Shown: in pieces, positions 1 through 64,000 of the stretch
Layout: each line of letters starts with the position of its first letter
Numbering within the stretch: position 1 is the first letter of the stretch
Source of the DNA: Ascaphus truei
Taxonomy: Eukaryota > Chordata > Amphibia > Anura > Ascaphidae
Assembly (NCBI GenBank): GCA_036426205.1
Contig: CM071570.1
Span: 53,651,087-53,715,086 of the forward strand
Length of the DNA stretch: 64,000 nucleotides
Reading direction: 5' to 3'
The notes under the pieces: model-generated
Databases searched by the model: none
The model's input: only the letters and a program-made list of their open reading frames with translations
Told to the model about the DNA's origin: nothing
Made by a program: the position numbers and the translations under genes

Positions 1-470
1 TGCATAGCTGTACAGTACTGTAACAGTGTCCACATTTCGGCATATACAGCGCTCTCCCCCCTCGCTCAGGATAATTAACTGCACTGCAGGGTTTCACTTC
101 TTATCTTCTCTAACAATGCAGTACATCTCTCCCACTCCATTCCTTTGAACGTGTGTCTGGTTTCAATCACATTCCTGCTTGAACGGCAGAATTTACTGGG
201 CATGGCGCCTGGTTAACTTCGCCACCACGGCTGCTTGCCTGGTGAGTGAGCCCAAAAAATTAAAAAAAATTTTTTTATTGTAATTTTTTTTCTCCACAAG
301 CCTGCAAAAAACAATCTTACTGTATTACAATATTCAATCTGTGCTGTAGCTTTTGACTGCGACCCTGTGCGTTTGACTGCACATGGTTGATTTGTGTGCT
401 TTTACGTACTGTATTTGGGGGTGTATTATATGATGAACTGCCTTTTGAAATTAAAGTATGTCTTTAGCTT
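1..470. repeat. Direct repeat A, copy 1
   Basis: This stretch recurs at about 3186-3640 with the same order of landmarks (CATATACAGC, GGATAATTAACTGC, ACTCCATTCCTTTGAACG, CGCCACCACGGCTGCTTGC, GATGAACTGCC). A shorter third piece, covering only the last ~100 bp, lies at 1428-1530. The copies differ mainly by one-base insertions and deletions. This is either old divergence or uncorrected long-read error. No coding potential is seen. Confidence 0.75.
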
Positions 471-539
471 TGAACTTCCATGCAGCTTACCGCTTAGCAC
501 CCTCCCCCACGAACGCTAGCTCAAGGATTTGAAATTCCA

Positions 540-1110
540 CTCAAGTGATTCATTTTCTTAATCTTGCATTTGTGTTTCTTAACCGTCCATACCGAGCTAC
601 AAAGCCTCACTGCGCCTGCGTGTAATCCTTTTTGAGATGGACTACTTAGGCTTAGCTGACTGCACATGCGTCCACCCCCAACCGCCCCTCTCCACAGAGT
701 CTTCATTTCTGAATCGTCCCATGTGTTCATCAATCCGTCCATAGTCCTAGCTACCAAGCCTCACTGAGGCCTGCGTGTAATTCTCTTGAATGGAGCTACG
801 TAGCTGCTTACTGCGCATGCATCACCCACACCCCCCCCACACCTCTCCACCAGTCTGTAATTTTCAAATCTTGCCATTGTATTCTTTAATCCGCCATAGC
901 CGAAGCCGAGCTACAAATCCTCACTGCGACTGCGTGTAATTCTCTTTGAGATGGGAGCCTCTTGCTGTTTACTGCGCTGCATCCCCAACCCCCCCTCCAC
1001 AGAGTGTTATTTTCTGAATCTTGCCCATTGTGTTCATACCGTCCATAGCCAGCTACAAACCCTCACTGCGCCTGCGTGTATTCTCTTTGAGACGGGAGAT
1101 TGAGGCTTTG
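540..1110. repeat. Tandem repeat of about 150 bp, first block
   Basis: Four units are seen, each with a segment of the type CCGTCCATAGCCGAGCTAC, then CCTCACTGCGCCTGCGTGTA, then TTTGAGATGG. They begin near 583, 735, 888 and 1038, so the period is about 150-153 bp. Between these landmarks is a C-rich stretch followed by CACAGAGT and TTTTCTGAATCTTG. A second block of two units lies at 1655-1960. The two blocks are separated by a SINE and a piece of repeat A. Confidence 0.7.
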
Positions 1111-1174
1111 TTTACGGCAACGTTTTGGAAAACCCTTCTCGAATTTGATTTGCACAGAGCATCACCTTGATATT

Positions 1175-1425
1175 ATAATAATATAATAGCATGTTTTGTA
1201 TAGCGCTGTGGTTATACGTAGCGCTTTACGAGACATTTGTAGGCACAGGTTTCCTGCCCCATGGAGCTCACAATCTATGTTTTTGGTGCCTGAGGCACAG
1301 GGAGATAAAGTGACTTGCCCAAGGTCACAAGGAGCTGACCCTGGAATTGAACCAGGCTCCCCTGCTTCAAACTCTCAGTGCCACTCTGCTTTTACTCACT
1401 GAGCCACTCCCTCTCATATTAGATA
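1175..1425 (-). mobile_element. tRNA-headed SINE with L2-type tail (MIR-like)
   Basis: On the minus strand the element begins near 1420 with a tRNA-like head. An A-box-like TGGCTCAGTGAGTAAAAGC is followed by a B-box-like GGTTCAATTCC. A conserved core follows, seen on the plus strand as AAGTGACTTGCCCAAGGTCAC. The 3' end, near 1200, resembles the L2 3' end (TATAGCGCTTTACG type). The head, core and L2-like tail order is that of MIR-type SINEs, which L2 machinery mobilises. It is unlikely to be a working tRNA gene, because the cloverleaf outside the two promoter boxes is not kept. It splits the 150-bp tandem repeat. Confidence 0.7.
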
Positions 1426-1654
1426 TTCACTCTGTGCATTTGCCTGCCCATGGTTGATTCGTTGCTTTTTATGTACTGTATTTGGGGGATTTTGATCAAA
1501 TTATTATGATGAACTGCCTTTTGAATTACTGTTGAAATTACTGTACTCTACTCTAACAATGTAATTTCTTTGAACTGCTGCACACTAACCTTCATCCCTC
1601 CCCTCCCCCATGCACCCACAACTCTTTTCGACAGACACCTCACCAGAGTCATTT

Positions 1655-1960
1655 CATTTTCTGAAGTTGGTCATTGTGTTTTAATCCGTCCGAGCCGAGC
1701 GTCAACTCGCCTCACTGCGCCTGCTTGTACTCTAATCCTCTTTGAGATGAGTGCTTGGTGCTTAACTGCACATGAGTCACGCAACCCCCCCCTTCCACAG
1801 AGTCGTTAATTTTCTGATTTGCCTTTGTTTCTTAATCCGTCCATAGCCGATCTACAAGCCTCACTGGCCCTGCGTGTAATCCTCTTCAAATGGGACTAGC
1901 TGATTACTGCACATACTCACCCCACCCCCCCCCCCCAACCCTTTGAGGCTTTTTTCGGTA
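1655..1960. repeat. Tandem repeat of about 150 bp, second block
   Basis: Two further units of the same repeat, with landmarks beginning near 1684 and 1834. The block ends in a C-run and the sequence TTTTCGGTAACGTCTTTGG, which is also seen at the end of the first block near 1115. Confidence 0.65.
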
Positions 1961-2095
1961 ACGTCTTTGGAAAATCCCTTCTCGATTTTGAAATGTAAAT
2001 GAATTTGCACAGCATTGTGGAATTGAGAGTTAAAAAACCATTACCTGACTCATGTTGTTTTGTCATTCATTCTTTTCATTGGTACTGTAGGGTGG

Positions 2096-3060
2096 GGGGG
2101 GTGTAGTGATTAGGAGAGAGTAAGTGTGGAGTTTATATAACTTTAATGTGTATTTTATTACGAGTTGAGAATATATTTTGTGTATATGTTTTTAAATATG
2201 CTTTGGTATTATTAAATTATTTTACTACGATGTGTAAATTAAATGTTTATCATGGTTTATATAAGTTTTATGTATTTCCTGTGTGCGGTCACATTTATGC
2301 AATTGGCCCGTGACTTTGGGGATGTTCTATCAATTTCCTATGGAGGAGGGGATTTTGATAGAGTAGTATGGGTATAAATAAGACACACCAGGACAGGTAT
2401 TCGCTACTCCTGACGATAGCCGTCTGCTAGAACGGCGGAAACGGTTGAGCGTGACCTTAATATCAAGAAGGAGAGAGTGCCTAGGTCACGTAGCTGTTTT
2501 CCTATCGGCGGGACACGGACCAGTGACGTTGACGGCCCCAAGACCGGAAGTGACGAGACGGCTCCAGCTGAAGTGTACCGGTGGTTTGTGCGCACAGAGA
2601 CGCGGAGTGTGGTGGTCTTGAGATCACAACGTCAATGCGTGTTTTCCATTGGGATCCTGTAAGCCTCCACTTTATCATTTTGGATAAACTGTGTTTTATT
2701 GGATACTGCAGTGTGCTTCTCTTTTCTTAAGATTATCTCCTCCGTATGTTCCTGCTGTGATACCCCATTAGGCATTGGCCTTAGTATGTGGTGCCCGGTT
2801 GGAGAGCCTTTTAACATTTATGCTACAGGTTGCACTATGTTTGTCTTTTTTTCTTTTTAAAGGTATCAACGCTCCCTGGTTTTCCTATCTATGTTTCGTG
2901 TGGACCTTGAACAGTCCGTCCAAGGGTTGAGTGTCTTTACTTTTTTGTGTTATTGTGTTTATTTTCACTATATCCACACATATTTTTTGAGGTGTTAATA
3001 TTATTACACTGTGTTTAGGTATTGAGCCCATCTAGTGTGTTTCATATACCTTCGCGGTCA
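2096..3060 (+). mobile_element. Penelope-type LTR (pLTR), left copy
   Basis: About 780 bp of this segment (2096-2880) is repeated at 5812-6604 in the same orientation. In order it carries an AT-rich start, a GGGTATAAATAAGACAC TATA-like stretch near 2371, a hammerhead-like core near 2410, a GC-rich body with GGAAGTGACGAGACGGC, and GGATACTGCAGTGTGC. The left copy runs further, to about 3060, ending in TACCTTCGCGGT. The reverse complement of that ending follows the right copy at 6606. PLEs characteristically carry such LTR-like repeats with hammerhead ribozymes. The internal PLE gene at 3976-5811 lies on the opposite strand, which suggests an inversion. Confidence 0.65.
2407..2450 (+). ncRNA. 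Hammerhead ribozyme motif, decayed or misread copy
   Basis: The core CTGACGA lies at 2410-2416. Stem II arms and a GGAAACG segment follow. Compared with the copy at 6111-6152 it has single-base insertions in the linker, before GAAA and in stem III (ACGGTT instead of ACGCGTT). As written it is unlikely to be active. Confidence 0.6.
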
Positions 3061-3089
3061 ACCTACGTCAGTACACAGCTGTGTGTGCG

Positions 3090-3640
3090 CCGCAGTTAAT
3101 TGTAAATTGCATATTAAAGTATACATGCATTTGCAGTGCTGTTCTGCAGTACAGTATGTCTCATTTGAAAATTGTTGAAATGCCATAGGCGTGTACCAGT
3201 ACTGTACCAGTGTCACATTTCGGCATATACAGCAGCTCTCCCCTCGCTCAGGATAATTAACTGCTGCAGGGATTTCACACTTCTTATCTTCTCTAACAAT
3301 GCAGTACATCTCTCCCACTCCATTCCTTTGAACGTGGTGTCTGGGTTCAATCACATTCCTGCTTGACAGCAGGAATTTACTGGGCATGCGCCTGGTAACT
3401 TCGCCACCACGGCTGCTTGCCTGAGTGAGTGACCCAAAAAATTAAAAAAAAAATTTTTTATTGTAATTTTTTTTCTCCACAAGCCTGCAAAAAACATCTT
3501 ACTGTATTACATATCAATCTGTGCTGTAGCTTTTGACTGCGACCCTGTGCGTTTGACTGCACATGGTTGATTGTGTGCTTTTTACGTACTGTATTTGGGG
3601 GTGGGTATTATATGATGAACTGCCCTTTTGAATTTTTTAT
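3090..3640. repeat. Direct repeat A, copy 2
   Basis: Second copy of the segment at 1-470. It follows the left pLTR and is followed by the 3' side of the PLE gene. After 3640 the two copies diverge: here the sequence changes to GTGACGGCGAAGGGCCAGG. The stretch 3640-3975 has no open frame and is probably the 3' flank or untranslated part of the PLE. Confidence 0.7.
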
Positions 3641-3975
3641 AACCCAGTGACGGCGAAGGGCCAGGAAGTGGCCGACGGCAAGGACTTACGCGCCACCGAC
3701 CCACGTTACTCTCCCCAACTCGTGTATTGAGCAGGCGATAGATGAATCTTAAAAAGACAAAGAAATTAGGTTAGAGTACAACATCAAATTCCAATGATCT
3801 TATGAAATGAGGCATAGTTATAAGGACATCTTGACTATTTTAGACATAGATCGGACCATAAGACTGAACACCAGTCAGTAAAAAATGCTCCCAAAAAATT
3901 ATATGAAAAAGGTGCAATCCCATCTAAATCATATAAAAATATAAAAATTACAGAAAAAGCAGAAAAAACACCAAA

Positions 3976-5811
3976 TTAAAGAAAAACACCAAGCTCAAAA
4001 TCCACATTCAGGCCTTGTGGCACTAAGGTTTTGAGAGAAAAGATCCAAAAACTCTCTCTCTTTTTCAGTGCAACATTTCTGTCCCCACCCCTCCAGTGGG
4101 GCAGAACATGCTCCAGCACTGTAAACCTTAGTCCTGAAGTGTCACCTTGGTGTGTAATAATAAAGTGATTAGATAAAAAGTGAGTAGTGACACCTCTACG
4201 CACATTACCAATGTGTTCCAGAATACGTGTTTTAACTGGCCTAGTGGTCTGGCCTACATATTGAAGCCCACATGGGCACTGTATTAGGTAAACCACGTAT
4301 TCTGATCTACAGGTAATGTGTTGTTTGATAAAAAACTTTTCATTAGTGATATTTGACTGGAATCCAAACTTATCATCCGATCTATATCTACATGCCAGGC
4401 ATGTGGTACACCCAAAAAAAAACTTTATTTGGGGTAACCACCTATTGTTCTCTTTACAGACTTTTTGTAGAGCACTAGGTGCCAGTGCGTTTTTTAATGA
4501 ATTAGCTTTTTTAAAAATGACTGTCGGTCTTTCAGGTACTATGTCACCTAGGATGGGGTCATTTTGGACAATATGCCAATGTTTGCGTATTATCTTAGTT
4601 ATTTTTTCGGATTGTCTATTGTAGTTTGTAAGAAAAGAAAAGTCAAAGTTCTTTTTAGTCTTAACTTTTTCTGTATTCTTTATAAGATCTTTCCTTTCTA
4701 GACATCCTACTTTTTCAACTGCATCCTGAATAACTTGTTCTTCATATTTCTTTTCCCTAAACCTTTCTTGCATAAATAAAGATTGTGTGTTGAAAACATC
4801 ATCATTCGAACAATTCCTCTTAACCCTACGTATTTGACCATATGGTACATTTTGTAGCCATTTCGGGTGATGGCAACTGGAAGGTGTGATAAAGTTGTTA
4901 ATATCGACGTCTTTGAAGAAGGTTTGAGTACTAATCTCTCCCTCTTCTATGAGCACAGTCAGGTCCAGGAAATTAACCCTTTCTCGACTGTACTCACAAT
5001 TGAATTTGAGGTTGAGTAGGTTGTCATTAAGATAGTATATAAATCTTTTGAGGCTTTCCTCATCCCCTCTCCAAATAAAGAATATATCGTCGATATATCT
5101 CCGCCACAGGCACAAATCCACACCCAGCTCTGCAATAGACCAAATATGGTCTTCCTCCCATGAACCCATGAGAAGATTAGCATAGCTGGGTGCAAATTTT
5201 GTGCCCATGGCGGTACCACACTTCTGAAGGTAGTATACTCCTTCAAACAGGAAATAGTTATGCTCTAGGATAAACCTTATCCCGTCTAGGATAAAGTTTG
5301 CTTGTTCAGAAGGCATATTTATATCCTTTGATAACGCTCTGTCTATGGCATCATGTCCATCTTTGTGACTAATACACGTATATAACGAAGTTATATCGCA
5401 TGTGGCAAGAAACCATCCTTCTTCCCATTTTTAGTTATTTATAACCTGCAGAATATCTGTAGTGTCTTTCAGATAAGACGGAAGTTCTTTCACATATTTC
5501 TGCAAATACGTGTCTATGTATGCCGACAAGTTTGACGTCAGGGAATCTATACCCGCTATTATGGGTCTTCCTGGGGGATTTACTAAACTCTTATGGAGTT
5601 TAGGGAGATAGTAAAAGATGGGTCTGATAGGATGTTCTTTATACAAAAACTTGTATTCGCTCTCATTTATGACTCCATCTTGTTTCCCCTTATCCAGCAA
5701 AATTTTTAGTTTGCATAGAAAGTCTGAGGTTGGATCCTTTTTTAAAGGTGTGTAAGTGTTGTTATCACCTAAAATCCGATGTGCCTCAGATATATAGTCT
5801 TCCCTGCTCAA
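3976..5811 (-). pseudogene. Penelope-like element reverse transcriptase with GIY-YIG endonuclease, one in-frame stop
   Basis: The product would copy element RNA into DNA at a nick made by its own endonuclease. One frame runs from 5811 to 3976, about 611 codons, broken only by a TAA at 5431-5433. Visible parts in order: YLPKLHKS and PPGRPIIAGIDSLTSNLSAY (N-terminal RT), CDITSLYT (RT core, just after the stop), GTAMGTKFAPSYANL, the catalytic YIDDIFFIW, FLDLTV, a CTTCLACR cysteine linker, and a C-terminal GIY-YIG domain around YVVYLIQCPCGLQYVGQTTRP ending in RESFWIFSLKTLVPQGLN. This domain order identifies a PLE of the endonuclease-bearing (Neptune/Poseidon/Penelope) group. The N-terminal part containing the NADKGG motif is missing. 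The frame abuts a pLTR at 5812 that points the other way, so the copy is 5'-truncated and rearranged. No excision-footprint heptamers lie in it, consistent with a young copy. Confidence 0.92.
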
Positions 5812-6604: not shown

Positions 6605-6834
6605 GAACCGCGAAGGTATTAGACTTCCAAGACAACAGCTCGCAAACGCCCCCTGAGTTTTTACACGGCATTGCAGTATTGCAGACAGCGAGAATAAAAT
6701 GCTAATATCACGAGCGCGAAAATAACGCTGTTCACTCCGGGCGAAAACGACAAAAAAACGCACCTAACCGGGATAATCTGAGAGCCGCGGATCTAGCCGA
6801 CTTAGACTCAGATCGGCCGCCACAGTAGCTGTTG

Positions 6835-7130
6835 TATTAATGAATTGCTTTGATTGGTTACTGGTTTAATTAATTCATAGCTGTTGTATTAATAAATTGC
6901 TTTGGTGTTTTGGAATGTTTTATTATTGTGTGTTTTGTGCACTAATGTGTTGAGATTAGGTGCCCATTGTGTGCTATAGTGGCTTATCATGCCCATATTA
7001 TTACAGTACTGTATATGGGTATGATGTACCACTATACTACTCAATGGGTACAGGGTGGGTAGCGGGCCAGGGTGGGTTAACCCCTTAATTATTGTAGCGG
7101 TTATTAACTGCAAAGGTGATTAAGGGGTTA
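6835..7130. repeat. Inverted-repeat arm, partner at 9290-9545
   Basis: The segment GTGCCCATTG ... GGTATGATGTACC ... ACTCAATGGGTACAGG reappears reverse-complemented at 9290-9420. The flanking AT-rich part (about 6840-6960) matches 9420-9545. The left arm has TACAGTACTGTA at 7002-7013 where the right arm has only TATTA. The arms enclose about 2.2 kb holding a GC-rich minisatellite and a perfect palindromic MITE. Confidence 0.7.
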
Positions 7131-7399
7131 GGCGACATTAGATTGTATTTATTATGTATGTACAGTAAGCTTCTTGCAACGGAGGACAGAGGGACCTGCT
7201 GTATCCAGAGGAGGAAGCCCTTCATATCGCTGTGGTAAGTAGAACTGTATTTATTTACTTTATTTATGCTGGCTAATGTTGTGTTTAATAATGGGGAAAT
7301 AATCTATTATCCATAACTGGATAATAGTTATTTTGCCCATTACTTTACTGTATGTGTTTGGGTGGAGGGGGGGGGGAGATTGATTGAAATGTAGGCCAT

Positions 7400-7830
7400 G
7401 TTTATTTGTTAACATACAGGGTTGGTACCTTAGGTCTGCGGGACCTATGGAGACCATCTGAGGACCCCACGAATGCCACGGGTACCACCTGCGGACCCAC
7501 GGGGGACACCTGCGGGGAAGAACCGGGGGCCCCACAGCTGTGGGGGCTCCGCGGACCCGCAGGGACCACCCGAGGGCCCCAGACCCCCATGGGAACCACC
7601 CGAGGGCCTTAGACGCCTGTGGATTTGACCCGGGGACCCCCAGACACTCACGGGCCCACCCGTGGACCCCATTGTGGCACACGGTGACCCGCGGGGACCA
7701 CCTGGAGGCCCATGGAGCCTGGTGGGAACCACCCATAGACCCTAAGATCCTGGGGTACAGGGGCACTGTAGGGCCTGCGTACACCTATCGGGACCACCGG
7801 GGACTACCGTACGTCTGGGGTATGAATCCT
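7400..7830. repeat. GC-rich imperfect minisatellite
   Basis: Repeated words of the type GGGGACCACC, GGACCCAC and CCCATGG are spaced about 25-35 bp apart. The proline/glycine-rich frames on both strands (for example 7260-7784 minus and 7540-7839 plus) are by-products of this composition and not genes. Confidence 0.65.
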
Positions 7831-7925
7831 ATATGTTAAAAAATAAATAATGGTTTTACATTATGGGGGGGACAGCCCCCCACGTGTATTGATGTTTATT
7901 AAATATTTTTTAGTATACATTTCTT

Positions 7926-8197
7926 TCATAGTGTAGATGTGCAGGGGGTCTACAGAGCTGAACCGCATTGGTTTTATGTCCGGGGACCCCCTGCTTCCCA
8001 AGATACAGGCCCCGTTATGGGGTGCCGGTATGCCTCTGCATTTAAATGTCCCGCGTCACGTGACCGGGACATTTCAAAGCATAGGAGATACCGGTACCCC
8101 ATAAAGAGGCCTGTATCTCGGGAAGCAGGGGGTCCCCGGACCTCAAACCAATGCGGTTCAGTTCCGGAGACCCCCTGCACATCTACACTATGAATGA
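7926..8197. mobile_element. Palindromic MITE, about 270 bp
   Basis: The two halves are near-perfect reverse complements. CATAGTGTAGATGTGCAGGG at the left mirrors CCCTGCACATCTACACTATG at the right. The axis lies near 8062 at a GTCACGTGAC core. Both strands therefore give almost the same short open frame, which shows these frames are artefacts of symmetry. It belongs to a hairpin-type non-autonomous DNA transposon family. No transposase is present. Confidence 0.8.
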
Positions 8198-8229
8198 AAT
8201 GTATATTAAAAAACATAATTTTCAGGCGA

Positions 8230-9289
8230 GATTTTTGCTGGCAGAGGCGGCTCTCTCTTGAGCAGCTCTCCCTGCAGCAGAAATGTATCGCCGGGTCAGG
8301 CCTTTTCAGAGGCTCAATCCTATCTTTGGCAGCAAATCGCTCGTTTTGGGAATTTTGCTATGAACGGTAATGAAGGCTTGCTGAATACCGTGATAGCAAC
8401 GCTCAAAAAAACGGCGATTTAAATGCCCTGGAGATAATTTTTATCAACCTTTACTGAATGAGGCTTTAAGTCTTTTGGTTATGAGGGGTAGAATGGGATT
8501 CTATATTACTCTGCCCACTAGCCATATCCCTCACACACTGGAAACCTGACTTAGGGCCTCATTCAGAAAGCGTTGATAAGGCCCTTATCGAGCACTTATC
8601 GGCCAAAATGGCTACTCGTATTCAGTAAGCCTTGATAAGTGCTCGATAACGGCCTGAATCGCCGCAAAATCTTATGACCCAAAGAAAATCGCCGATTGAG
8701 CGGCGATCAGTCGCTTATCGACCATTTTCAGAAGGATCATAAACTTGCGAGATTCTAGTACCCGCGAGTCGCATATCGCTGCCTATCGCAGCCCTAAAAG
8801 GCGATCTTCTCCCCAAATCCAATTCCCCTCAAAATTTAGGTAAATTGGTGGGGAGATGCCTCGATGAGTTGCGATATGTCGGGACTTAGAAAAAATCAGG
8901 CCCTTTTCCAGCCTCGGATTGATGGCGGGGGTCTCCAGAGCTGATAGCCATTAATACCAGCACCGGAGGCCCCCGGCATGCATCCGATGAAGGAAAAATG
9001 CATTTACAGCAACTTCATTACCTTATCGGCTAACCGCTAAGGCAATGAAGGGGTTAAACACCCATGCCAGGCTTACTGTGGCTAGCGAGGGTGGGTGAAG
9101 GGGGAATTTGGCACTAAGTGGCTGTTTAGGCGTTGCGGGGGGGACTTAACCCCTTCATTACCTTAGCGGTTAATACCGCTAAGGTAATAAAGGGGTTAAC
9201 CCAACTGCTACCCACCTGCAAGGTCTAGACACCCATCCTTAGGGCTAATACCCCCTTCACCCACCCGTGAGGCCTAAGCACCCACCCCG
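8230..9289. repeat. Hairpin-rich intergenic stretch
   Basis: No coding frame. Several local hairpins are built from TTATCG/CGATAA words (8560-8760). A larger one at about 9150-9205 is formed by AACCCCTTCATTACCTTAGCGG and its complement, with related words at 9005-9055. GGCCTCATTCAG at 8557 and CTGAATGAGGC at 8454 are reverse complements and may be the ends of small MITEs. Confidence 0.5.
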
Positions 9290-9545
9290 GACTGACTATA
9301 CCCACCCTGTACCCATTGAGTAGTATAATGGTACATCATACCCATATAATAATAATATGGGCATGATAAGCCTCTATAGCACTCAATGGGCACCCTAATT
9401 ACAATACATTAATACACAAGACAAACAATAATAAAACATAACTAAACTCCAAAAAAACCACACTTCACTAAATAAAAACAGTAGCCAGCTAATCCAATGA
9501 ATACAAGCAATAACAACATCAACAATGAATTAATTAAACCATTAA
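9290..9545. repeat. Inverted-repeat arm, partner at 6835-7130
   Basis: Reverse-complement partner of 6835-7130. It lacks the TACAGTACTGTA present in the other arm and has a TATTA repeat in that place. Confidence 0.7.
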
Positions 9546-9559
9546 CCAATCAAAACAAT

Positions 9560-10835
9560 TAATTCCTAAAACAACTCCGAATTATTTTATAAAGTAACTA
9601 ATCAAACCAAATAATTACTAAACCAACTCAAAATTAATAGTAACAGTAACCAGTCAAACAAATTAATTACTACAACATTAATGAATTAATTTAAACATTA
9701 AAATACAATGAAATAAATTCAAACAATATCTGAAATAACCATGAAATGCATTAGCTAACATAATACAACATTAACTAAAAACGAATAACAATCACAAACA
9801 TTTGATTACCATTAAGCAGGAAAAAAAAAAACAATGACATCCACATAAGAAACTGTAATGGCTGTGCTTCATTTGCCTTTAAGATGACGTCACAAAGCCG
9901 GCGTCACATGGTATTTCAGCCAATCAGATCGTGGGAACCAATTCCACACTCTGATTGGCTGAAACACCATGTGACGCCGGCCATCTTGGATTTAGGGACA
10001 TCATCTTAAAGGCAAATGAAGCACAGCCATTCTGATTGGCTGGCATCATTCCCTTTAAGTGATGTCATTTAAAAAAAAAAATTATTGTCGGAACATGGTT
10101 TTAACAGCCAATCAGGTGTCTGTTAACCATTTTGAGGCTAAATATGATGTCCCAAGCCCTATTTAGCCCAAGAAGACGACGAGACAACATCGGTTGGGAT
10201 TTTCCATGGGGCTTTTTGGATTGACAGATGAAGATAGAAGATAAAGAAGATCAAGAAATGGTGACAAATGAAGATAGAAGAAGGTGATTAAAGAAAGAAA
10301 AAAGAAGATAACCTGATCCGGATCTTCATGGCGGATGGCATCGGATGCTGTTGGAGGCCTTAGAGGTACGTGAGCTTCCTGTTTCCCCGGGAGTCGGAGG
10401 GCCACCGCTTCTAATGGTAAGTAATATATTGAATGTTTGTAAATGTCTCTTTTTACGGGTTTTTTCATTGGATGTGTTTTTTTATTTGTTTGGGGGAGGC
10501 ACATTGACTGATAATATATTAATCTGTACCACTTTAGGGTACTGATTAATACATTATTATGACAATATGTGGGGGGCATTTCTGGCTTGGTATTGCTGTT
10601 GGGTTTTTTAATTACAGTTTCTTATGTGGATGTCATTGTTTGTTTTTTTCCTGCTTAATGGTAATCAAATATTTGCGATTGTTGTTTGTTTTTAGTTAAT
10701 GATGTATTATGTTAGCTAATGCGTTTAATGGTTATTTCAGATATTGTTTGAATTTATTTCTTTGTATTTTAATATTTAAATTAATTCATTAATGTTGTAG
10801 AAATTAATTAGTTTGATTGGTTAATGTAGCCACTG
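9560..10835. repeat. Long inverted repeat with inner palindrome
   Basis: The arm at about 9630-9860 (AT-rich, containing CTTAATGG/CCATTAAG words and ATGACATCCACATAAGAAAC) is reverse-complemented at about 10610-10830. Inside, 9856-10034 is a separate palindrome. AATGGCTGTGCTTCATTTGCC mirrors GGCAAATGAAGCACAGCCATT, with CAATCAGA/TCTGATTGG closer to the axis. This is a nested hairpin transposon structure with no transposase gene. Confidence 0.75.
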
Positions 10836-17957: not shown

Positions 17958-19610
17958 AAATACCTTGCCTGCTCCCTACGTCAAGTGTTTTTGGTGCCGA
18001 AATAAACCTAAGGCAAGATAATACAAGCCAGATAGAAAACTACTGGTGCCTTGGTGGAACAAACCACATGACCAGGGAGTATAGCAGAGCACAGAAACAT
18101 GTAAACAGATGAAAAATACATAACATTTAGAAAAAAGGAATAAAAAAGGAATAAAAAAGGAAACTACTTTATTTTATTTATGATTGAATAGTAGCGTTTG
18201 GAGCTTAGTAATCCCCTTAATGGCTAATATTATGGTTCACAGCTGTCTGTAGGAAGCAGAAGAGGATGGAATTACAGTATGCTTCAATTATACTGCATCA
18301 TTACGAAAACAATTACAGTACACCTTAAAAATATATATTTTTGATAGTAATGCATGCTCATATTAGTAAACACATGCTCGTGTGTTAGATATTCATGTGT
18401 ACTTTGTGAACTGCAATCGCTGTATTGAAAATGACAACTGAAATGTCATACTGTACATAAGCATTTAAAGCTCACTCTAGAAAATGCCATTTTAGCATAT
18501 GTAATTTGGTGAGCCTCAGAAAACTGTGACACGGATTTTAAACAGCATTTTTGCAATATATGACTGAATTTATTTTATGAAAAGAGGTCTGAATATCTTG
18601 GGTAGAAATATGTATCTTCATTATGCTGCACAAAGCCAGTGTGCATAATTGTGATGTGTCCTGAGATTCTTTTCTTTGAGCTTATCTCTGAGGCGGAATT
18701 TCATGTTCCCCATGAATACATTTGAAAGCTCTTTTTGCTATTTGTATCAGCTCAGAAAATGAAAAGTGCTATACTAGGTATCGTCTGCCAGAACCTTCTG
18801 AACAATATACGTAGATGGAAAGTGAAGTCACACTCACAGAGCCAAAGCAGTCATCTAATACAATCATTTTTTATTTGAGGACAGGCAAAATCCTGCCTCG
18901 ATTTGCAAGAGTAAAAGAAAAAAAAAGTAAAATCTCAAACGTCTTAATTGCATTATTAAAGAATGTACTTTTACCTAGAGAAACGTGCCATGTGACAATA
19001 TTACAATCTAAAACATACAGTATGTATTCTTAAGAACAGGTTTACTAAACAGTGCTAAGATTTATTAGCAAACTACACTGAGCTTGACATTTACTATATG
19101 GTGCTAAATATTGGCACTCAGTGTCAAACATACAAAGTAATTTACTAAAATATGCGGTCCTGCCCTCCCCCCAAAGATAAGCATACAGTAGACCAAGATA
19201 CCAAACATGGTACCACTAACCTACCAAAAATGTATAATTAAATATACAGAATCTTAGCAATCTCAAACCCCAGTCCCACAGTATTAAATATTTATATATT
19301 TAATTGTGCCAACTAGAGAGGTACTGGGAAAGTGACCTCAAATATACAAGTTATTTGTAAGTTATGAAGTTATTTAGTTAATTTCTATATTTTATTCTCT
19401 TCTCAAAAGTATGGGTCATTTACAGTACCTCAATCTTTTGGCCAAAACATGTTAAGCCTGCGACAATGTCAAGGTCACCCTTTCATGACCCATACTTATG
19501 AGAAAAAAACATGTAGAAATTAATCAAATAGTTTGTCATGTTGGATGTGCATTGGGGCTTCTTTGTTTATTATTTCTAGCCTACTACAGATGTAGCCAGA
19601 CTTACCGTCC
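17958..19610. other. Gene-free AT-rich sequence
   Basis: No coding similarity. TACAGTA/TACTGTA heptamers lie near 18265, 18315, 18450, 19014, 19185 and 19429. GTCATGTTGGATGTGCATTGGGGCTT near 19536 is a short relic of the hairpin repeat at 17.3-17.9 kb. Confidence 0.5.
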
Positions 19611-41900: not shown

Positions 41901-43725
41901 ATTTATATTTACCAGGATAGACCTGATACTTTATCTCCAAAGTACTGCATCGCAGGCTAGGTCTCATCTAAAAGACACCCACACAGGTTTTGAACTTTTA
42001 AACTAGCATCCTCAGTGGCAGGAAAATGTATTATTTTGTCACGTAGCGATGTGAAATCGCTCTATACCTGTCCAGATCAATTTACACTACTACACGAGAA
42101 GGGGGAGCTATAGAGCGCGGTTTTAACACAAAGGACACTAAAATAACACATGAGGACAACGTAAATTCATTTGAGACAGCATTAGTGTTTACTTTTGCCC
42201 ACCAATTCTATCTGGTTCAACGGCCGACACAACATCTTTCTGTTTCTTCCCCAATTGCTTGCGCCACGCTCATGCTCGATGGGAACAAGGTTCGCATCGC
42301 CCAGTTTTTTGGCAAACAATCTTCATGGCGGATTGGGAGGACGTCCCATCAGGGTCCGAGCCATCCGTTATGCGCGAGCCTGGGTCCCCTGGCATCGCGC
42401 ATAAACATTGAGATGTGTCATGACCTCATCGAGGAGGGACAGAACCAAGCTGATCATTTTAACAGCACTACATCACACTAACCGTGAACCTGAGTTCACT
42501 ACAGAACTAGTAAAAACTCTCTTCACTTTTTAGTTAGATCTCGGACGATCTTTGTGGAAAACAACATATTAAAACAAAAAAACAAATTTGTTTAACCACT
42601 TATCAACCCACCGATGCGCAACACATTACCCTTTTAATAAAACAAACTAGCTTCCTCACCCAAAATGCTTAGAAATATCCCTACGGACCACTACGCAGTA
42701 ATCAAAACACCTGCACGATACAGAACTTACCAGACACAGGCAGATTCTGAAAGACCAAATTCTACAAGGCTCATAATCCAACAATTTAACACACGCTTTC
42801 CAACATCTGACGTGACAGTAATTCCGAGGGACACAAAACTTTTTTTAAAAAATCCAGAGGAAAGAGAGCACCTGAGACTAGCGTTTCCCACATAATCAGA
42901 TCGTATCACCTGTAAACGATTTTCGAGCATCTAGAGAAAGTGAAAATCCCTTAAGCCAAACAGACAATGGTTTATCAACTGATAATTGCATTCTTTATCG
43001 CGGGATATGACCACTCAGCTGACATAGTGCAACTGAACCCATTCTAAGGATCACTTTCCATCTACAACAAACCGAGGGTTCTTGTTAGAAGTGGCCAACA
43101 ACATTGACGGCACCAATATGGCACCTAGTGGTATTCAGGAGGAACCCAATATTAGCAACCCGAAAATTGTTCTACCTCCCACCACGTTGGCAATTTTCAA
43201 TCGGCTTTAGTTGCAAGGCCTGAAAAACAGTGCATTTACCACGACTAAAAAACATTTTAACTTTTCTACAACACTTCTAACCCCCAAAAGAAAACAAATT
43301 TAATATCAAACAACCCTCATTATTGTCGGACGATAACTGTGGTATACACATAAAACCTGCTTGCTGTCCCATAGTGGTTTCCATACACTGTGGCGCGGGC
43401 CCTTCGTAGGTGCCCTGTGAGAGTCCGCGTTTTGGAACATTGGGCAGATATACGAGGCAGTCATGACCCATAGTTTGTCCATACATTGTCACACCTGGTA
43501 CATGGGGGAACCCCCGATGTACTCTCAATTCAAAGGAATGAGAAAAGTAGAGCACCTTGGAGGGGCGCGGAAAGAACCGCTCAACAACTGTGCCCACGTG
43601 AACACATGATGTGGATCTACCGACTGCCACAGCCATTGGCCCCCAAACGGCCCTCACAATAGACATCAGACCATAGAGCCTGGGTTTTTTGTGACTATTC
43701 CATCCTTCTCCCCATTTCACACCAC

Positions 43726-43761
<36 letters not shown>

Positions 43762-45387
43762 CTTTTTTTTAGCCCTAAGCTTCACCACGCCGGGAAGTCC
43801 ACAACACCCACCTTTCTTCCTACGCCCCCCTATTCCCACTCCTTCCCCCAACCCCCAAGCAATGCCTCTTCTTATTCATACTTCCACGTCCGTATTCACG
43901 TCCGTCCCTTCCCCCCCCTCCCCCCCCCCGCTCCGATCCATTCCCCCCCACCCTTCCCCCCCCCCTCCCCCCCGTTCCCAGTCCCCGTCCCTTCCCCCTC
44001 CCTCCCCTCCCCCCCCTGCCCATCTTTCTTTTATTCACACACAGTTCCCGTTCCCTTCGCCCCCTCCCAATCCCCCCCCCCGCCCCCTAAAAAAAATCAA
44101 AGCAAAACAAAAACCCAATCACACACCTAAAACACCCCCATGATGAGGGCCAGGTGGACCCCCAACACACCGGGAGCAGTCCCCCCCCCCCACTCCGTCC
44201 CTCCCTCCCGCCCGTTCACCCCCCCCTATTCACGTAAATTCACTTTCCGTACAGTCCTTCCCCCCCCCTCCGTCCCTTCCCCCCACGTCCGTCCCTTCCC
44301 CCCCCCGACCTCCCCCCCCCACCAAACTCCAAAACCACAGGCACTAACGCACCCAACGCGGACAAAGCAGAAAATGTTTCGAACTACGCAAAACTGCGCC
44401 GAGCAACTACACAGCCCGGTGACAGAGCTGCTAACGAATCAAAGAACGAAATCGCAACAGCTCACAGAAAAAACAATGATCCGCCGAGCCGGGGAGGATG
44501 AAGAGACACACCACGAACACACACCAACTCCAAGAAATGAAAGTTAGTTCAACACAAACTCAAGGGATGAAAAGGGGTAAAGCGGGGCACTCCGAGTGTA
44601 AAAGGATCTGCCCCACGAAACAAAACTGCAAAAAAGAAGGGAAAAAGGCGCCGTGAAAAAGGGAATTTAAACCAAAAACTAAAGACAAATGGAAGGGACA
44701 TAACAGAGGAGTCAAAATACCAAAACCCAGCAAAAAGGCAAGAGCGACCGGGAGAAAACACAAAACGAATCGATTAGGAGCACAACAAAAGGATCGGGGG
44801 CGAGTGAGGATATCCAAAACGGTAGAAGGAGGCACAAGAATAACAGGACGGGACGCAGAACGTGAAACGGGGCCCCCCTCCTCAGCCGCTCTTCCTTCGT
44901 TCCCAGGTTTACCTTTCCCCTGGAAGCCATCCCCCGTCGACCTCCTGCACCAGGGCAGTCGATTCCTTCAAGATAAAGCCTTCCGAGTCACCGCGCCGTT
45001 CCGCCGAGCCCACTCCCTCCGCGCCGCTGTGACGCAGAGAAAACACCTCCGCCCCCCACCTCCCTCTCCCCTACTCGGCTTGGTCACCCCAAGACCCGTC
45101 CACGCGCGGGCACCACGCAATAAAAGAAATGTCGCGAAAGCTAGGGGTATATTCGAGCCTAAAAAAGCTTACTACCGCACAAACAATAACATCAAAGCCC
45201 CGCCCCCCGAACGATCGCCGCAACACACACACCAAACCCTCAATCACGCCCATTCTTCACGGGTCTCTCCCTTACCGCTCTTCCCCCACCACCGTCCCTC
45301 CTCACTTATTTTCGTCTGACAACAATAGCATTAAACTTTCTAATTACTTTTAATTACCACTTTTCATCTTACGACAACATCCCATGG
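39000..45387. other. Anomalous low-quality-looking sequence, no genes assigned
   Basis: Composition changes abruptly. The stretch is A/C-rich with many C runs (43900-44330 is almost pure CCCTTCC-type sequence), one 33-base T run at 43728-43760 and scattered short frames without similarity. None of the TACWGTA heptamers common elsewhere is found. I recognise no protein family in any frame. It may be uncorrected long-read sequence or a badly read unknown element. Confidence 0.55.
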
Positions 45388-47732
45388 CCCAGTATCAAGC
45401 GCACATTTTTTGTGTTCCTTGGTTATATTTTTAACAGAACTTGGATCACCCACGTACTAAGACAGCCCCCAAGAACAATATGTTTTCCGCACCTTTGGAG
45501 CGTGTGGATAAAACATTTATTTCATACTTATTTTTTTTTCATCAACTCTTTTATTTATCTTCATACCATATTTTTTAGATATTACTTGGCAACACATTAT
45601 ACCTCCCACCACCCCCTTCAGGTATTACGCTCACCAATAGTTTCACTTAAATTGTCATTACACACATCAAAACACTTCCATTTTAATACATCCTAGATAC
45701 TTGAGCCCTTTATAACAAACCTATTCGTTAATCTGGTTTCACAACCAACCCATTTAGATGTTTAGACATTTATGATTTATATCAGATCAACCAACAATAG
45801 TCTCGTACCCTTAAAGATGTGTGGTAAAACATCAGACATATCATCAGTTTTTAAAAAATAGGAGCATCCATCCCCTCGAAATGACAATGTATCAAAACCT
45901 CAGGGTGTTTTAAAACTACCTGCGGCGATTGGACAATTAGCGAAATCCATACCACACACCCCACATAGGCTCAGAAAGAAGAGCGAGACTAGATACTCCG
46001 AACAGCTGTTTATAGGAGGAAGATTGAATGGGACTGGATTGTCGGGGTCGGGCGGCCGCATTAGATAAGGACGGCACCGCGAGCTTACACCCATCACAGA
46101 AAAAGCTAAAAAAACTACGGAGCCTGAGGAAGAGAAGCAGTCATGCGTTGAAGGTTCTGTTGAAGTGCCGTCGGCCGTTTTTTTTTGTTTGTTGTGTTTG
46201 TTTTTGTTTTTTTGGTTGGTGGTTTGTTGGCGAAACGCGTTGCTCCAAATTCCCGCCATCCCTTTTGAACTGTGTGCTGCCACCAGTAGGGAGCGGACAA
46301 CTGGAACACCAGAGCCCTCCTCTCTCGGACGGCGATCGGAGTCTTTCCCCTTTACTTACTGGCAGTCCACGTACCCCGTGAGTAACATCACCCCCCCTAA
46401 AGCCTGGCCCATTTTACTTACAAAAACCCTGACAACCATAGACCCAGCAAAATCAACCCCCACACAAAAACCAAATCATCAACAACCGGAACACTGGGAA
46501 CCAATGCATCTCACTATCTGAATTGAGCGGTGAGTTTTTCTATTTTATTATTTATTTGTTCATCACGAGCATTTGCCTCAACATCCATTGGGCGGTTATA
46601 CTTCCACATTGCCTAGAACGATATGAACTATAAAACATCAGGAGTCTGGTACAGTTAAGGCTGTCTCCATGGACGTCGTCCAGAACAAACAGAAACCTTG
46701 TCTCCCAAGTGTGTACTGTGTACTAACTCACCTGGCCGTAGTGTAAAATAGTTTTGTTTTTATATTTTTTTTTTTATTTTTGCTCATTTCCCTATCCCCC
46801 ACCACCTCTGCCAGGCCACCTGAGTGTCAAGCCTGCACTGATTGAAATTGGATACCATATACCCTGCTGGAGCTCAAGATACCGTCCCCCCCGATGCACA
46901 CCACACATGCCACGTAGTGAGTGTTATATTAATTCCTGTAATATAGTTTTTCCCCTTCCACCCACCTGCTATAATTCTAGTTTGTGATACAATTCTACAA
47001 TTCTGCTGCACCCCAGGCACATCCCCATTTATTTACACGACGAACTACCAGGCCAAACGAAGGGCAAAGCCGAAATAGGCGATGAGTGGCGGAGAGGAAA
47101 AAACACTAAACGAGACAGAAACGATCCCACGCGAAAGATGAAAAGAGGCAAAGGCAGAACGAAATAACAGAAGCACAATATTCTTCTTCCTTTTCCTTCC
47201 GAGGGGACAACTCATTTAGCTAGGGAAGAACCGGACGAAGACGAGAGAATCCTCAATAAAAAAATTAATCATCCCCGACGAAGAACAGAAAGAAATCCAA
47301 GCCTAGGAGGACGCAAAGATACCTTAATGAATTCCGCAAGGCCCCATTTGCACAAGGCCGTGTGAGTGTTGTATGGTTTTTTGTAGACCCAACCACCACC
47401 ACACTGTTGAGGTGTTTCATCATCTTTCACACGACACACGCATATCATATTGCACCACAATCATAATTTTCGAATTTGTTTCCATCACATCTTATTCACA
47501 CACTCCACACAGTGCTCTCCCCATTCTTCTTCTCGATCTTTTGTACATTTGAATGATCCTGGTAGATCCTACGTTGGGTCTTCAGAGACACAGGAGGAAA
47601 AGAACTAATAGGGAAAAACCTTGTCCTATACCATCAAGTTTTTGTATTCAATTCCCCCTATTCGCTTTCGAAACGGTTCCAGGTCTAAAGCCAACGCCCC
47701 GGGGGGCCGCATTTCTGTTCTAAAAAATCACG
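45388..47732 (+). repeat. Noisy second copy of 37340-39318
   Basis: Landmarks appear in the same order as in the clean copy, with frequent inserted bases: ACTTGGATCACCCACG, GCACCTTTGG, GGAGCATCCATCCC, GAACAGCTGTTTATAGGAGG, CTACGGAGCCTGAGGA, CGAAACGCGTTGCTC, GCACAAGGCCGTGTGAGTGT, then CACAGGAGGAAAAGAACTA. About 100 extra bases separate the two halves of the hammerhead (46120-46130 and 46231-46245). The copy ends at the target-site duplication. Confidence 0.8.
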
Positions 47733-47745
47733 CCCGATAGGCAAT

Positions 47746-47970
47746 GCAAGGGCATAGGGAGCCATCCTTCTTTCCTATGAAGAAGAGAGCTGCACCTGCC
47801 AGGAAAGTAGAGGGTCAGATACACCCCTTAGAAAGATTCTCCTGGAGATAGTTATTAAATACCTTTTAATTCTGGTTCTGAGAGGAAATAGGTTCTCCCA
47901 AAAGGAATGGCAGCACCTGGTCATAGTTCAATGGGGTAATCTTAAAAACGATGTGGGGGAAGCATATGTG
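47746..47970 (-). pseudogene. Ty3/gypsy pol, region between protease and reverse transcriptase (part 1)
   Basis: The minus strand shows LPPHR, PFGRTYFLSEPELK, NNYLQENLSKG, PSTFPAGA and FFIGKKDGSLCPCIAYR, the segment that leads into the RT of Ty3/gypsy elements. It connects directly to the RT block at 37109 once the 37110-47732 insertion is ignored, and to the protease end at 48557 once 47989-48538 is ignored. Several frameshifts are present. Confidence 0.85.
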
Positions 47971-47988
47971 CATTTTTCTTTTCACACA

Positions 47989-48538
47989 AGAAAACACGAA
48001 ATGCCCGCTCAGCCTACTGAAAGGAACCAAAAACCTTCTAGAGTGGTGCTGTCAGGGTATGAACATATGTATACACGAGAGAGAACCCTATTATGACGCA
48101 CACTAACTCTACTAATAGAAAAATAAATACATTTTATTGGAACATAAACTAAAACACAGATAAAATTGCGCTTAACCAGCGAACGACTCGACTGTTGTAG
48201 TACCTAATAGTATTATATCTTGGCCCTAATTAGTGAATGCTGCATGCAGGTAAGGTACCTTATACAACGCTATATTAGCATGGCGAGTTTCAGGTTCTCG
48301 CCACGAGTTTGGCGAGTTTTACAGCTCTGAAAAATTTTCAGAGCACTTTTAAAAATCGCGCCATTTTCTCCCGAGTTTAATGATTTCTGGCTAGTTTTTT
48401 CACCAGAAGATGGCGCTATTTCCTTATCTATGCTCTCTGCATGAGCCCCTTAGTTTATGTTCCAATAAAATGTATTTATTTTTCTATTAGTAGAGTTAGT
48501 GTGCGTCATAATAGGGTTCTCTCTCTCTCTCGTGTATA
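47989..48538 (-). mobile_element. Palindrome-plus-tail element (550 bp), 18-bp target-site duplication
   Basis: CATTTTTCTTTTCACACA occurs at 47971-47988 and 48539-48556, and both copies encode the same few gypsy residues. Arms: ATGTATACACGAGAGAGAAC ... ACATAAACTAA (48067-48152) and its reverse complement (48451-48540). A tail of about 80 bp (47989-48066) is on the left only, so the element points to the minus strand. The centre holds GGCGAG repeats and a TTTCAGAGC hairpin. I find no hammerhead core in it. Confidence 0.72.
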
Positions 48539-48556
48539 CATTTTTCTTTTCACACA

Positions 48557-48757
48557 CACATCCAAGGACTCCGAGTATTGGATAGGTAGAAGATTTTCCT
48601 GAGAGGAAGAAATCTTATGTATTCCCACGCACTCTGGTGCAGGAAGTTTAGGTAGCCAGGAGAGTTGGTAGTGCTCCGAGGAAAAGGTGAATACTCTGGT
48701 CTTCCAGTGAATTAGTAGACTATAGATTGTGAGCCATGGAATTCCCAGAATCACCAA
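48557..48757 (-). pseudogene. Ty3/gypsy aspartic protease C-terminal remnant
   Basis: The minus-strand frame starts MVILGIPWLTIYSLLIHW, the flap-distal LGxPWL motif of gypsy retropepsins, then runs through VFTFSSEHYQLSWLPKLP into the linker to RT. The catalytic aspartate region upstream of 48757 is not recognisable. It belongs to the same element copy as 47746-47970 and 36730-37109. Confidence 0.8.
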
Positions 48758-48759
48758 AA

Positions 48760-50375
48760 ACTGGGGTGAAGGGCTATGAGAAGCAGACTATTGGTTCTTT
48801 TCTCCTTTCACTTTCCTACAGTATGTTCCCTTAATAGATATGCACGCCGATTGTGAGATTGATATCATGATTGGTACAGTACATGTATTCACATTAAGAA
48901 AAATATGTTCATTAGCTGCTGTACAAAAAGTAAATTTACATCAATAGCTACCACAAAAGAAACTATAGAACACAGATATACATCTGGACAAGCTTTTTAC
49001 ACTGCTGTTTTAATGGAAATGGAAATCTGCTTATACTGTATTGTATTGAAGCTGTAGTTTTTCTGCATTTCTTGCAAATATTTAACAGTAAAGTATTATT
49101 TAGTCCGTATTTTGGAAAATGTCCTTGGTGCCACTGCCACCAGCAGTCACTTGATCATGGTGATCGCGACACGGAGGATAAACGCTGCGGGGGGGTCATA
49201 TTCAGAAGCACGGACTCGTCACAGCGTGATCGCAGCAGACACTGTCTCCGGCACTGATGACTTTTGCTTCTTTGACCGTGGCGCTGGTCTTGAGCCTCGC
49301 TACATCTGTAGTTACAGCATGTTCAAGGGAAGACACAACTATTAACAATGGTACTGTACATCTATATGTGAGTGTTGTTATATTACATTAACAAATAAAG
49401 CTGTAAAAAGACATAATTAACAGCAAAACATCTAAAAAAAAAAAAGGCAAAGTAATCATATTTTGGTGTAATATTGTCTCAAATAACATTATATACTGTA
49501 CATTTGAGGAAGTTTTGTGCGTACCATACAGTACTTTGGCAACGTTAACGCATCATGCAGTATACAATCAGGAAAAAATTAATAATAGTTTAAATGTAAA
49601 CTACTGTATTCCAGTGAATGAGACCCTATTTGAATTAAATAAAAGCAGAGCTTTTTCTGAACATTGCATGGTTGGCAGCAAGGCATGATTAAACAAATAA
49701 CGGGAAAATAAACTGTATTAAATTAAATTGGATGTCGTACCAAGAAATCTCCGTTTTGATTTCACAATGACATCTCTTTCATAACAGCCGCCCCCATCTT
49801 TTCAAAGATTATATTTTTATGTGCTGCATCAGGAGTGAAGTTCAAACTTATTGCATTCTTTTAGTTAACAAAGTCTTGTTTACCCGATAGATATTACAAA
49901 ATGCAAAGTTGCTGTCAACAACTGCCAAGAGCAGAAGCATTTGCAACTTTTTTTTATAACTTGTGAGCCATCACTACTTTCGTACCTGAATACAAATGAG
50001 TATTTTTCTTATAAATATTAGCTTAAAATATTTAAGGTGACAAATTTCAACAAGATTATATGGCACTGCAATTTGTTTAGACTCCTTTATAGATTGCAGT
50101 GAATACACCAATTCAATGTAAAGTGTTTGAAATAAGAAGTAACTACTATTCTTAAAGCTTTTAACGTACAATCTTCTCCAACTCAAGAATACAAGAAAAT
50201 AAACAGTATAATATGTTACCGACTTCAATCGTTTTAAACAGTTACGGAATCAGTGAGATATTTCAAGTGAAAAACCCATCAGAATGTTTCCTACAAAGTG
50301 ACATCTTCAAAAATGTATAATGTTGTGAATATAAACTGAAAACATATACTGTATATGAATTAACGGGAAGGAAAA
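48760..50375. other. Gene-free AT-rich sequence
   Basis: No coding similarity. A short GC-richer patch (49110-49320) has no recognised homology. TACAGTA/TACTGTA are frequent here (48822, 48884, 49035, 49352, 49494, 49528, 49605 and 50348). Confidence 0.5.
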
Positions 50376-62264: not shown

Positions 62265-62303
62265 CTCTTTGACAAAGCCTATTCAGGGTGAAATGCGTTA
62301 GAG
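62265..62303 (+). ncRNA. Hammerhead ribozyme, U3-A8 variant (right arm)
   Basis: CTCT (62265-62268), core TTGACAA (62269-62275), stem II weakened by loss of one C compared with the left arm, GAA, ATGCGT (62293-62298), U, AGAG (62300-62303) pairing with CTCT. Confidence 0.65.
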
Positions 62304-63425
62304 CGCATAGGGGATCCTCTCCCCTCTTTTTATCCTATATTTTTTGCTCATGGATTAAATAAAAGCATTATTGTTTAGCACAGTCCAGCCTTCATTTTTT
62401 GCCTGCAGTGCCCGCTGATCCTCTTTCCTGTAGAGAGGCTTTCTTGTTCAATCACACCTACAGCCTGGAGCACGCCAATCTGGATGATTACGTCATGGAG
62501 TAAGTGACTTTTATTTCAACCTCCCAGGGGATTTAGCCATTTATGCAGGGTTTATACTTATAGGGGTCCGTTTCTGGTTGAACCACCAGCTCCGGTAAAC
62601 CCTGTCCCCATTGCTAGGCTTATCCCTTAATTACGGTTCAAGACAGGTTGTTTATATGGTATATTATTACCCAGTTAACTCCTTTGTATCCGGAGCTGTT
62701 TTGCATCTACTACATGAACTTTATATTCTTGGATTCACACTCTGCAGCACATGTTTGTTTGGGGGGGGCTCATCCTCCCCAATTGTTCTCTATTACACAG
62801 CCAACAGCCTGACTATTGGGCCTACTCTGCTCCTCTTCCCTCCAGGGGATAGTGAGTGTGTACCATATATATGCCTCTGCTAGAGGGGCAGGGAAGAGCT
62901 GGGACTGCTGCGGGTGCCCTTGGCCTGTAGTGAAGGTCCAGGGACCATCCTTCAGTGATAGCTGAGAGACTGCATCGGGCAGAACTCTGCCTTTTTACTG
63001 TGCTGTACAGTGAAGACAATAAACCATTCCTGTTGTTATACCTCCTGCCTGGTGTGTGACCTTACTGAGGGGAGAGGTAATCGTTCTACCGTGAGAGATC
63101 ACCTTCAGTTCCCTTGAGCCTACGGCAGATGGAGGCGCTGCACTGCTAAAGAAGCCTAGTCCTGTGTCTCCACTACCATCGACGGACTACTCAGCCCTCC
63201 TGTTACCAGCAGGTATCATGCACCACATACGTAGTAATGGCCAAATCTCCCACCGGGTGGGGGAAACACCATTACAGACATTTTGTAGAAGTCTCTATAG
63301 AAAGTTACTTTGGTCACAATCCATGTTCAAGCCTAAAAGGATCCGGGTACGCAACATGTAGATCCAATGTATCTCCCGACGATTCAGTTGATTAATCCTA
63401 TCCCCTCCTCTGATGGAAGCAGGAA

Positions 63426-63432
63426 TACTGTA
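63426..63432. other. TACTGTA heptamer in PLE coding DNA, putative excision footprint
   Basis: Its 5-bp excess shifts the frame between GIEH and the downstream GGDR...LNRRE block. Without it these motifs lie in one frame, as in the intact PLE relative. Confidence 0.75.
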
Positions 63433-63568
63433 TGTTCTATGCCACTGAAGGAGAACATACTAGTGTCACGTAGATTGCAGGAAGAGAAGTGTTTGGAAAC
63501 CGGGTGATTTAAGTCCCCTATTTTGATTAATTGTAAAAGCTCTATAGTTCTCTTTTTCAGTGGCCTGA

Positions 63569-63575
63569 TACTGTA
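63569..63575. other. TACTGTA heptamer in PLE coding DNA, putative excision footprint
   Basis: Its 5-bp excess shifts the frame between QYVG and the TIRPLKKR segment. Without it the two join in the order seen in the 3976-5811 copy (QYVGQTTRPVKTR). Confidence 0.75.
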
Positions 63576-63760
63576 GTTCATCCAACATATTGCTTACCAC
63601 AGCCAAATGCCAATAAATAAATGACAAATTGCGTGTCACAATTAACAAAGGACTTAACCGTATCATTTTTTTTGTGTGTCTATAGAAGCAAAATGGGATG
63701 AAGATTTCATATGAGGGCACACTTTAGAATGGTGACACTGAAATGAACCCATCAGAGGAT

Positions 63761-64000
63761 TTGATACTGAATCCTCCTTGGAATTAAATAAGCTAGGGAA
63801 CAAAAATGTTTGCTATTGTTTTCGTCCACCTTGAGACGAAATTGGAGCCTGAGTCAATAAAGGTTCGTAAAACAGGATCAAGATATAATACATTCCACTC
63901 ACAATTGATTTAATCTGTTCTGCCTGGATACTAAATTGTGTAATAAAGAGTGAGACCACTCTCTTAATCTGTTATTTCTTGCTCTATTAAGTAGAGTAGC
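63761..64000. other. Unassigned end of window
   Basis: Probably more decayed PLE sequence upstream of the endonuclease, but I cannot recognise motifs in it. Confidence 0.3.

Follow-up and report, generated by a model that had tools for sequence, protein, structure and literature searches.

Why should a single seven-letter word, TACAGTA or its reverse complement TACTGTA (together TACWGTA), recur so often in one stretch of Ascaphus truei DNA? The stretch, referred to here as the window, covers 64 kilobases (kb) of contig C4 (C4:53,651,087-53,715,086) in a genome of 2,824,020,385 bases and 19,235 contigs, and an earlier note had proposed that its words are excision footprints of Tc1/mariner transposons. 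Our analysis supports that proposal. It is very probable that TACWGTA, at sites that can be judged by paralogues or a reading frame, often represents a 5 base pair (bp) insertion, CWGTA, at a TA, and that the bulk of the excess consists of excision footprints left by TA-targeting transposons of the Tc1 type, or perhaps the pogo type, with CAG...CTG tips. Many of the words were nevertheless inherited with repeats, and some are native codons.

The window holds 65 words (30 TACAGTA and 35 TACTGTA), exactly the number that had been estimated by eye, and Markov models of order 1, 2 and 3 predict 8.8, 11.6 and 14.6, close to the dozen that had been expected. At order 3, TACWGTA ranks second among 7442 words (counted as strand pairs), and the other five of the top six are two-base repeats. 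Simulated windows, 100 per order, contained on average 10.9 words at order 2 (maximum 18), 14.6 at order 3 (maximum 27) and 19.8 at order 4 (maximum 32). An order-5 model predicts 50.0 words and leaves only a small excess (rank 85), because it already contains the hexamers of TACWGTA itself. The permuted control words TACSGTA and TAGWCTA, found once and twice respectively in the window, show no excess there. Among all words of the form TA-NNN-TA, the CAG/CTG class is the one outlier, with 65 observed and 11.6 expected; the next class is AGG, with 16 against 8.0.

The excess over permuted words extends to the whole genome, which contains 1,883,685 copies of TACWGTA, 585,816 of the same word read backwards, 144,874 of TACSGTA and 176,023 of TAGWCTA. 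Judged by the TACSGTA counts and the TA-NNN-TA spectrum, the centre base is A or T only, as for a footprint of the Sleeping Beauty/Tc1 type. The stacked word TACWGTACWGTA occurs 85,997 times genome-wide, compared with 1,500 for its reversed control; independent hits predict approximately 17,000-35,000 by our own arithmetic from the TA density of the window, and hot sites or copying within repeats would have to supply the remainder. A further sample comprised twenty 10-kb stretches on six contigs, at positions picked by hand rather than drawn randomly, and held 200 words where the order-3 model predicts 45.7. Their distribution was uneven, with 120 of the 200 in three loci (L013, 37; L018, 45; L026, 38) that have copies of a large Tc1-type element in common. 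Loci with this single element thus account for over half of the words in this small sample, and a clear excess remains elsewhere, the other 17 loci holding 80 words in 170 kb against 28.0 expected. With the three element loci and window positions 1-3650 left out, the remaining 230 kb contain about 98 words more than the order-2 model predicts. Because words inside repeats were copied along with them, a word count is not an event count. Transition neighbours of the word are only slightly raised (206 against 182.8, and 82 against 70.9), and we therefore claim no age for the scars.

Comparison of related copies shows the insertion itself at the following site:

7002..7013, plus strand: stacked double scar TACAGTACTGTA; none of the 19 other distinct copies compared has its second 5 bp
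6827..9576, no strand assigned: inverted-repeat element with the 7002 site in its left arm, the right arm lacking the double word (arms I21-I23, self-alignment)

The repeat around window positions 6880-7090 served as the query, yielding 45 genome matches with 40 of 1820 first-look candidates scored, and 20 loci of this family were compared, one of them (L030) being the window itself. In the alignment of the 7002 site (21 rows, two of which repeat a copy, with the overlapping loci L035 and L043 counted once), the 19 other distinct copies carry plain TA in three cases (L042, L045 and L049), TACAGTA in 14 and a word with one changed base in two; the double word is found in the window copy and in none of the 19. 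One site of one repeat therefore gives the series TA, +5 and +10. Elsewhere in the family, L036 carries the word where 19 of 20 sequences have plain TA, and 16 of 72 distinct 5-bp insertion contexts are TA to TACWGTA, some of the 16 representing a single site that appears in the two arms or in loci that overlap. The family loci contain 137 words, and for 69 of them an empty-TA allele exists in another copy, compared with 31 of 467 other TA-NNN-TA words; the 69 fall into 15 clusters, some of which are two halves of one stacked pair. Across the window and the 20 sampled loci, distinct insertions of length 5 (29) outnumber those of length 4 (15) and 6 (8), and seven of the 29 turn TA into TACWGTA. 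The private 5-bp insertion at TA that the earlier note had called for is thus seen at paralogous sites, and it is also seen in a broken reading frame. Neither of the two outcomes that the note had named as refuting was obtained, as the excess also outlasts a third-order model and the permuted controls.

That frame belongs to the relic of a Penelope-like gene, for which an intact open reading frame (ORF) in the same window provides the standard:

3976..5430, minus strand: open Penelope-like ORF of 484 amino acids, without words (ORF list, tblastn)
63298..63635, minus strand: relic of a Penelope-like gene (GIY-YIG part) with two frame-breaking words (tblastn with the window ORF)
63426..63432, minus strand: scar within the relic; with TA in its place the match score rises from 38 to 68 and the frame continues
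63569..63575, minus strand: scar within the relic; with TA in its place the match score rises from 65 to 89 and the frame continues

When both words are read as TA, three frames join into one that matches the intact ORF, although the joined frame still has one internal stop codon. The intact ORF is 51% identical to its best match among Ascaphus truei proteins. Near Penelope-like relics, four of seven words score better as TA (63426, 63569, L009:4044 and L009:4282); those at L009:4035 and L016:938 are native Leu-Gln-Tyr codons of Penelope-like GIY-YIG genes, and the seventh, L014:4198, is uninformative. Such native words are false positives to be masked in any genome-wide count of scars. Together, the two tests individually resolve four of the 65 window words as insertions (7002, 7007, 63426 and 63569), the other 61 being either without paralogues in the compared set or shared between copies.

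The sequence surrounding the words also carries a signature of target choice. Read outward, the flanks on both sides favour a purine (R) at -1, a pyrimidine (Y) at -2 and A at -3, that is, AYR-TA-YRT. AYR is found in 35 of 108 flanks of window words beyond position 3650 and in 37 of 160 flanks from the 17 sampled loci, compared with 251 of 2354 flanks of other TA-NNN-TA words. A symmetric, A-T-rich preference around TA, as a footprint of the Sleeping Beauty/Tc1 type requires, is therefore present here, and it resembles the target consensus of Sleeping Beauty, AYATATRT.

These features could be explained by the Tc1 excision pathway. An element would sit between two copies of TA, and its transposase would cut 3 nucleotides inside each end, leaving CAG overhangs. 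The joined overhangs would form C:G pairs around one central A:A or T:T mismatch, and repair would fix the mismatch as A or T, giving TACAGTA or TACTGTA; such a pathway would therefore produce TACWGTA rather than TACSGTA, with an insertion length of exactly 5. As each scar holds two TAs, it could be hit again, stacking as TACWGTACWGTA. Scars would then gather in neutral DNA, be purged from working exons and be copied along inside other repeats.

Both words are known from an experimental system. In one study of Sleeping Beauty, TACAGTA and TACTGTA, each TA plus 5 bp, are given as the consensus footprints of that transposon, and such words are counted at 'over 300,000 locations' in mouse (PMC4378557). 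Sleeping Beauty is there a laboratory tool with about 100-200 candidate scars per tumour, whereas Ascaphus truei has approximately 1.9 million words in one genome, often stacked, and donors that are candidates only. The zebrafish Tc1/mariner element ZB is likewise cut and pasted at TA and leaves footprints of 0-3 bp similar to those of Sleeping Beauty and Frog Prince; the same text reports an AT-rich palindromic target preference, but ZB was assayed on plasmids, and the text consulted describes no genome-wide deposit (PMC7913693). Among the titles and abstract openings that our searches of open-licence papers listed, we found none describing an accumulation of Tc1-type scars across a vertebrate genome.

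Which transposons could have left the scars? A tip-pair search of 264 kb found 19 inverted pairs in which TA is followed by CAG and CTG by TA, compared with one to nine for nine control tips; seven of the pairs consist merely of two TACWGTA words and were removed, leaving 12, a number of which may be due to chance. The candidates include two short elements in the window and a much larger one on contig C2:

55139..55473, no strand assigned: surviving element of 335 bp, tips TA then CAGGCATACCCCGC, with copies in L009 and L016 (tip-pair search)
8004..8115, no strand assigned: surviving element of 112 bp, tips TA then CAGGCC... (tip-pair search)
C2:75,001,646 to approximately 75,010,524 (L018:1646-10000 plus L029:1-1024): complete Tc1-type element of 8.9 kb, with incomplete copies in L013 and L026

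The 335-bp element contains a word at 55244 that its L009 copy also has and that is therefore not private. The 8.9-kb element begins TA then CAGTTGCGG... and ends ...GCCACTG then TA; its inverted tips, TACAGTTGCGGCAGCTTTTATTCT and AGAATAAAGTTGGTCGCCACTGTA, agree at 18 of 24 letters by our own count and lie between TA duplications, and it also has internal inverted repeats. Several putative exons of the element code for a Tc1-type transposase (DDE_3, PF13358, 64.3 bits against a cut-off of 28.6, E 1.4e-17), the only transposase identified in this analysis, and the element also encodes a forkhead protein (E 3.4e-15). A search with half of the transposase found a Xenopus laevis protein with 64% identity and an Ascaphus truei protein with 85% identity over 67% of the query. 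A third ORF has no Pfam match, and its four database relatives among the best 7988 candidates scored are all from Ascaphus truei. A second Tc1-type family, with tips TA then CAGTTGTGTGxAAAAGAAAGTACACCC, is present at L016:6643 and in L029 from about 3030.

Within L018:1646-10000, none of 97 coding TA sites and 45 of 539 non-coding TA sites carry a word. If sites were independent, the chance of finding no coding words would be about 0.0006 by our own arithmetic; the true strength of the contrast is lower, because at least eight words lie in tandem 162-bp units. Those units, with two TACTGTA each, are found in a putative intron of the transposase gene (L018:5996-6687 and L013:549-856). Copies of the element differ by exact TA-to-TACWGTA insertions (for example, L018:1909 and 2706 compared with L026, L018:8206 with L013, and L013:4570 with L026), and scars therefore likely kept forming while the element spread. 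A single productive burst, as had been suggested, is not borne out: both the stacking of scars and the presence of scars confined to one copy suggest that the activity recurred.

Several observations weigh against reading the words as excision scars. No excision has been observed, and no donor family is proven. In the 6880-7090 repeat family, length 5 does not form a peak, since insertions of 4 bp are as frequent (79) as those of 5 bp (72), and decoys, that is, other TA-NNN-TA words, also have empty alleles, in 31 of 467 cases. Strict flank matching over 41 sequences, for which 49 window words were usable, found an empty allele for none of them (decoys 3 of 275), a yield attributable to the few paralogues of the window among those sequences, and for two of 67 words in the 17 sampled loci (decoys 3 of 663); the corresponding values were 14 of 90 in the large-element loci (decoys 6 of 112) and 40 of 85 in the family loci (decoys 30 of 352). 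In the Penelope-like relic, 5-bp deletions placed near the words score about as well as reading them as TA (69 near 63426 and 87 near 63569); the frame score alone locates a 5-bp insertion only to within some codons, and the exact place of each scar therefore rests on the form of the word. Finally, in aligned paralogue pairs from the window and the 20 sampled loci, whose rows are not independent, the word is the same in 158, substituted in 82 and gapped in 57.

The 158 shared words, the concentration of 120 of the 200 sampled words in loci with one element, and a surviving element in L027 with CAGTA tips would all fit another account, in which TACWGTA belonged from the start to abundant repeats, either at their tips (CAGTA.../...TACTG) or as a motif inside them, and its count reflects repeat copying and nothing else. 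We regard this as very unlikely: most window words have dissimilar flanks, the excess persists in the other 17 sampled loci, and empty-TA alleles exist at matching sites. Flanks, self-alignment and paralogues lead us to reject a purely repeat-borne origin as the full explanation, and to keep it for a share of the words. Still less credible is the idea that mutation or selection has favoured TACWGTA as a motif with a function or a tendency to slippage, even though the word is AT-rich, nearly palindromic and concentrated in the non-coding parts of the large element. The inserted CWGTA is no copy of its neighbours, the insertion is exact in single copies and in a dead reading frame, and the permuted controls, together with the series of TA, +5 and +10, set motif and slippage readings aside. 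A more serious competitor, which we nonetheless think rather unlikely, accepts the scars as real and assigns most of them to pogo/Tigger-type rather than Tc1-type elements. Several surviving CAG-tipped elements (for example CAGGCATACCCCG...) have tips that resemble those of Tigger, and the pogo-superfamily transposon Passer targets TA and leaves footprints of 0-4 bp, but prefers the target AAGTACTT (PMC9976928). The word flanks, with a pyrimidine favoured at -2, fit that target poorly, and the transposase found here is of the Tc1 type.

If excision scars of the Tc1 type are indeed the source of most words, the genome may hold a record of cut-and-paste traffic. In its broadest form, to which we give an even chance, this proposal holds that excision scars, of the order of a million and often serial hits on one TA, far outnumber surviving elements, and that the densest archive is the forkhead-carrying Tc1 element (approximately five words per kb, none in exons), transposons having passed repeatedly in and out of elements that encode the enzyme. 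That scars outnumber survivors, as the earlier note had it, holds in the sample, with about 98 excess words in 230 kb against 12 candidate elements in 264 kb; the element side of this ratio comes from a crude search. Surviving elements are the usual evidence of cut-and-paste activity, leaving jumps without a surviving element invisible. If this nearly invariant scar could be counted across the genome and paralogues used to date it, sequence alone would suffice to measure how many excisions there were per surviving insertion, how germline repair usually ends and how old inserted DNA is in relative terms. Scars would then rank among the frequent sources of 5-bp insertions in this genome, each a potential frameshift, and their density could act as a clock for inserted DNA.

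Within the window the words are unevenly spread, and the rich and empty segments described previously are confirmed by counting:

18273..19427, no strand assigned: cluster of six words in AT-rich DNA with non-repeated flanks, within the 18.2-19.5 kb segment (word counts, flank comparison)
48817..50353, no strand assigned: cluster of eight words with non-repeated flanks, within the 48.8-50.4 kb segment (word counts, flank comparison)
1..3650, no strand assigned: 11 words in repeated DNA (self-alignment)
36100..48800 (12.7 kb), no strand assigned: stretch without words at 753 TA sites (word and TA counts)

Words common to repeat copies within positions 1-3650 are those at 16/3200, 318/3500 and 407/1474/3587, and pieces at 1462-2030 resemble the large Tc1-type element. 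The Penelope-like gene (3976-5811) likewise has no words, at 151 TA sites. The stretch at 36100-48800 is undated and possibly represents younger DNA or a younger insertion; parts of it near 38 kb and at 46.4-46.8 kb repeat each other. Two long inverted repeats lie elsewhere in the window. One, at 59925-62449, has arms that are 94-98% complementary; the other, at 32407-34188, is almost perfect, falls into several pieces with most arms 87-100% complementary, and is bordered by tandem repeats of the TGTGTGCAGTG type.

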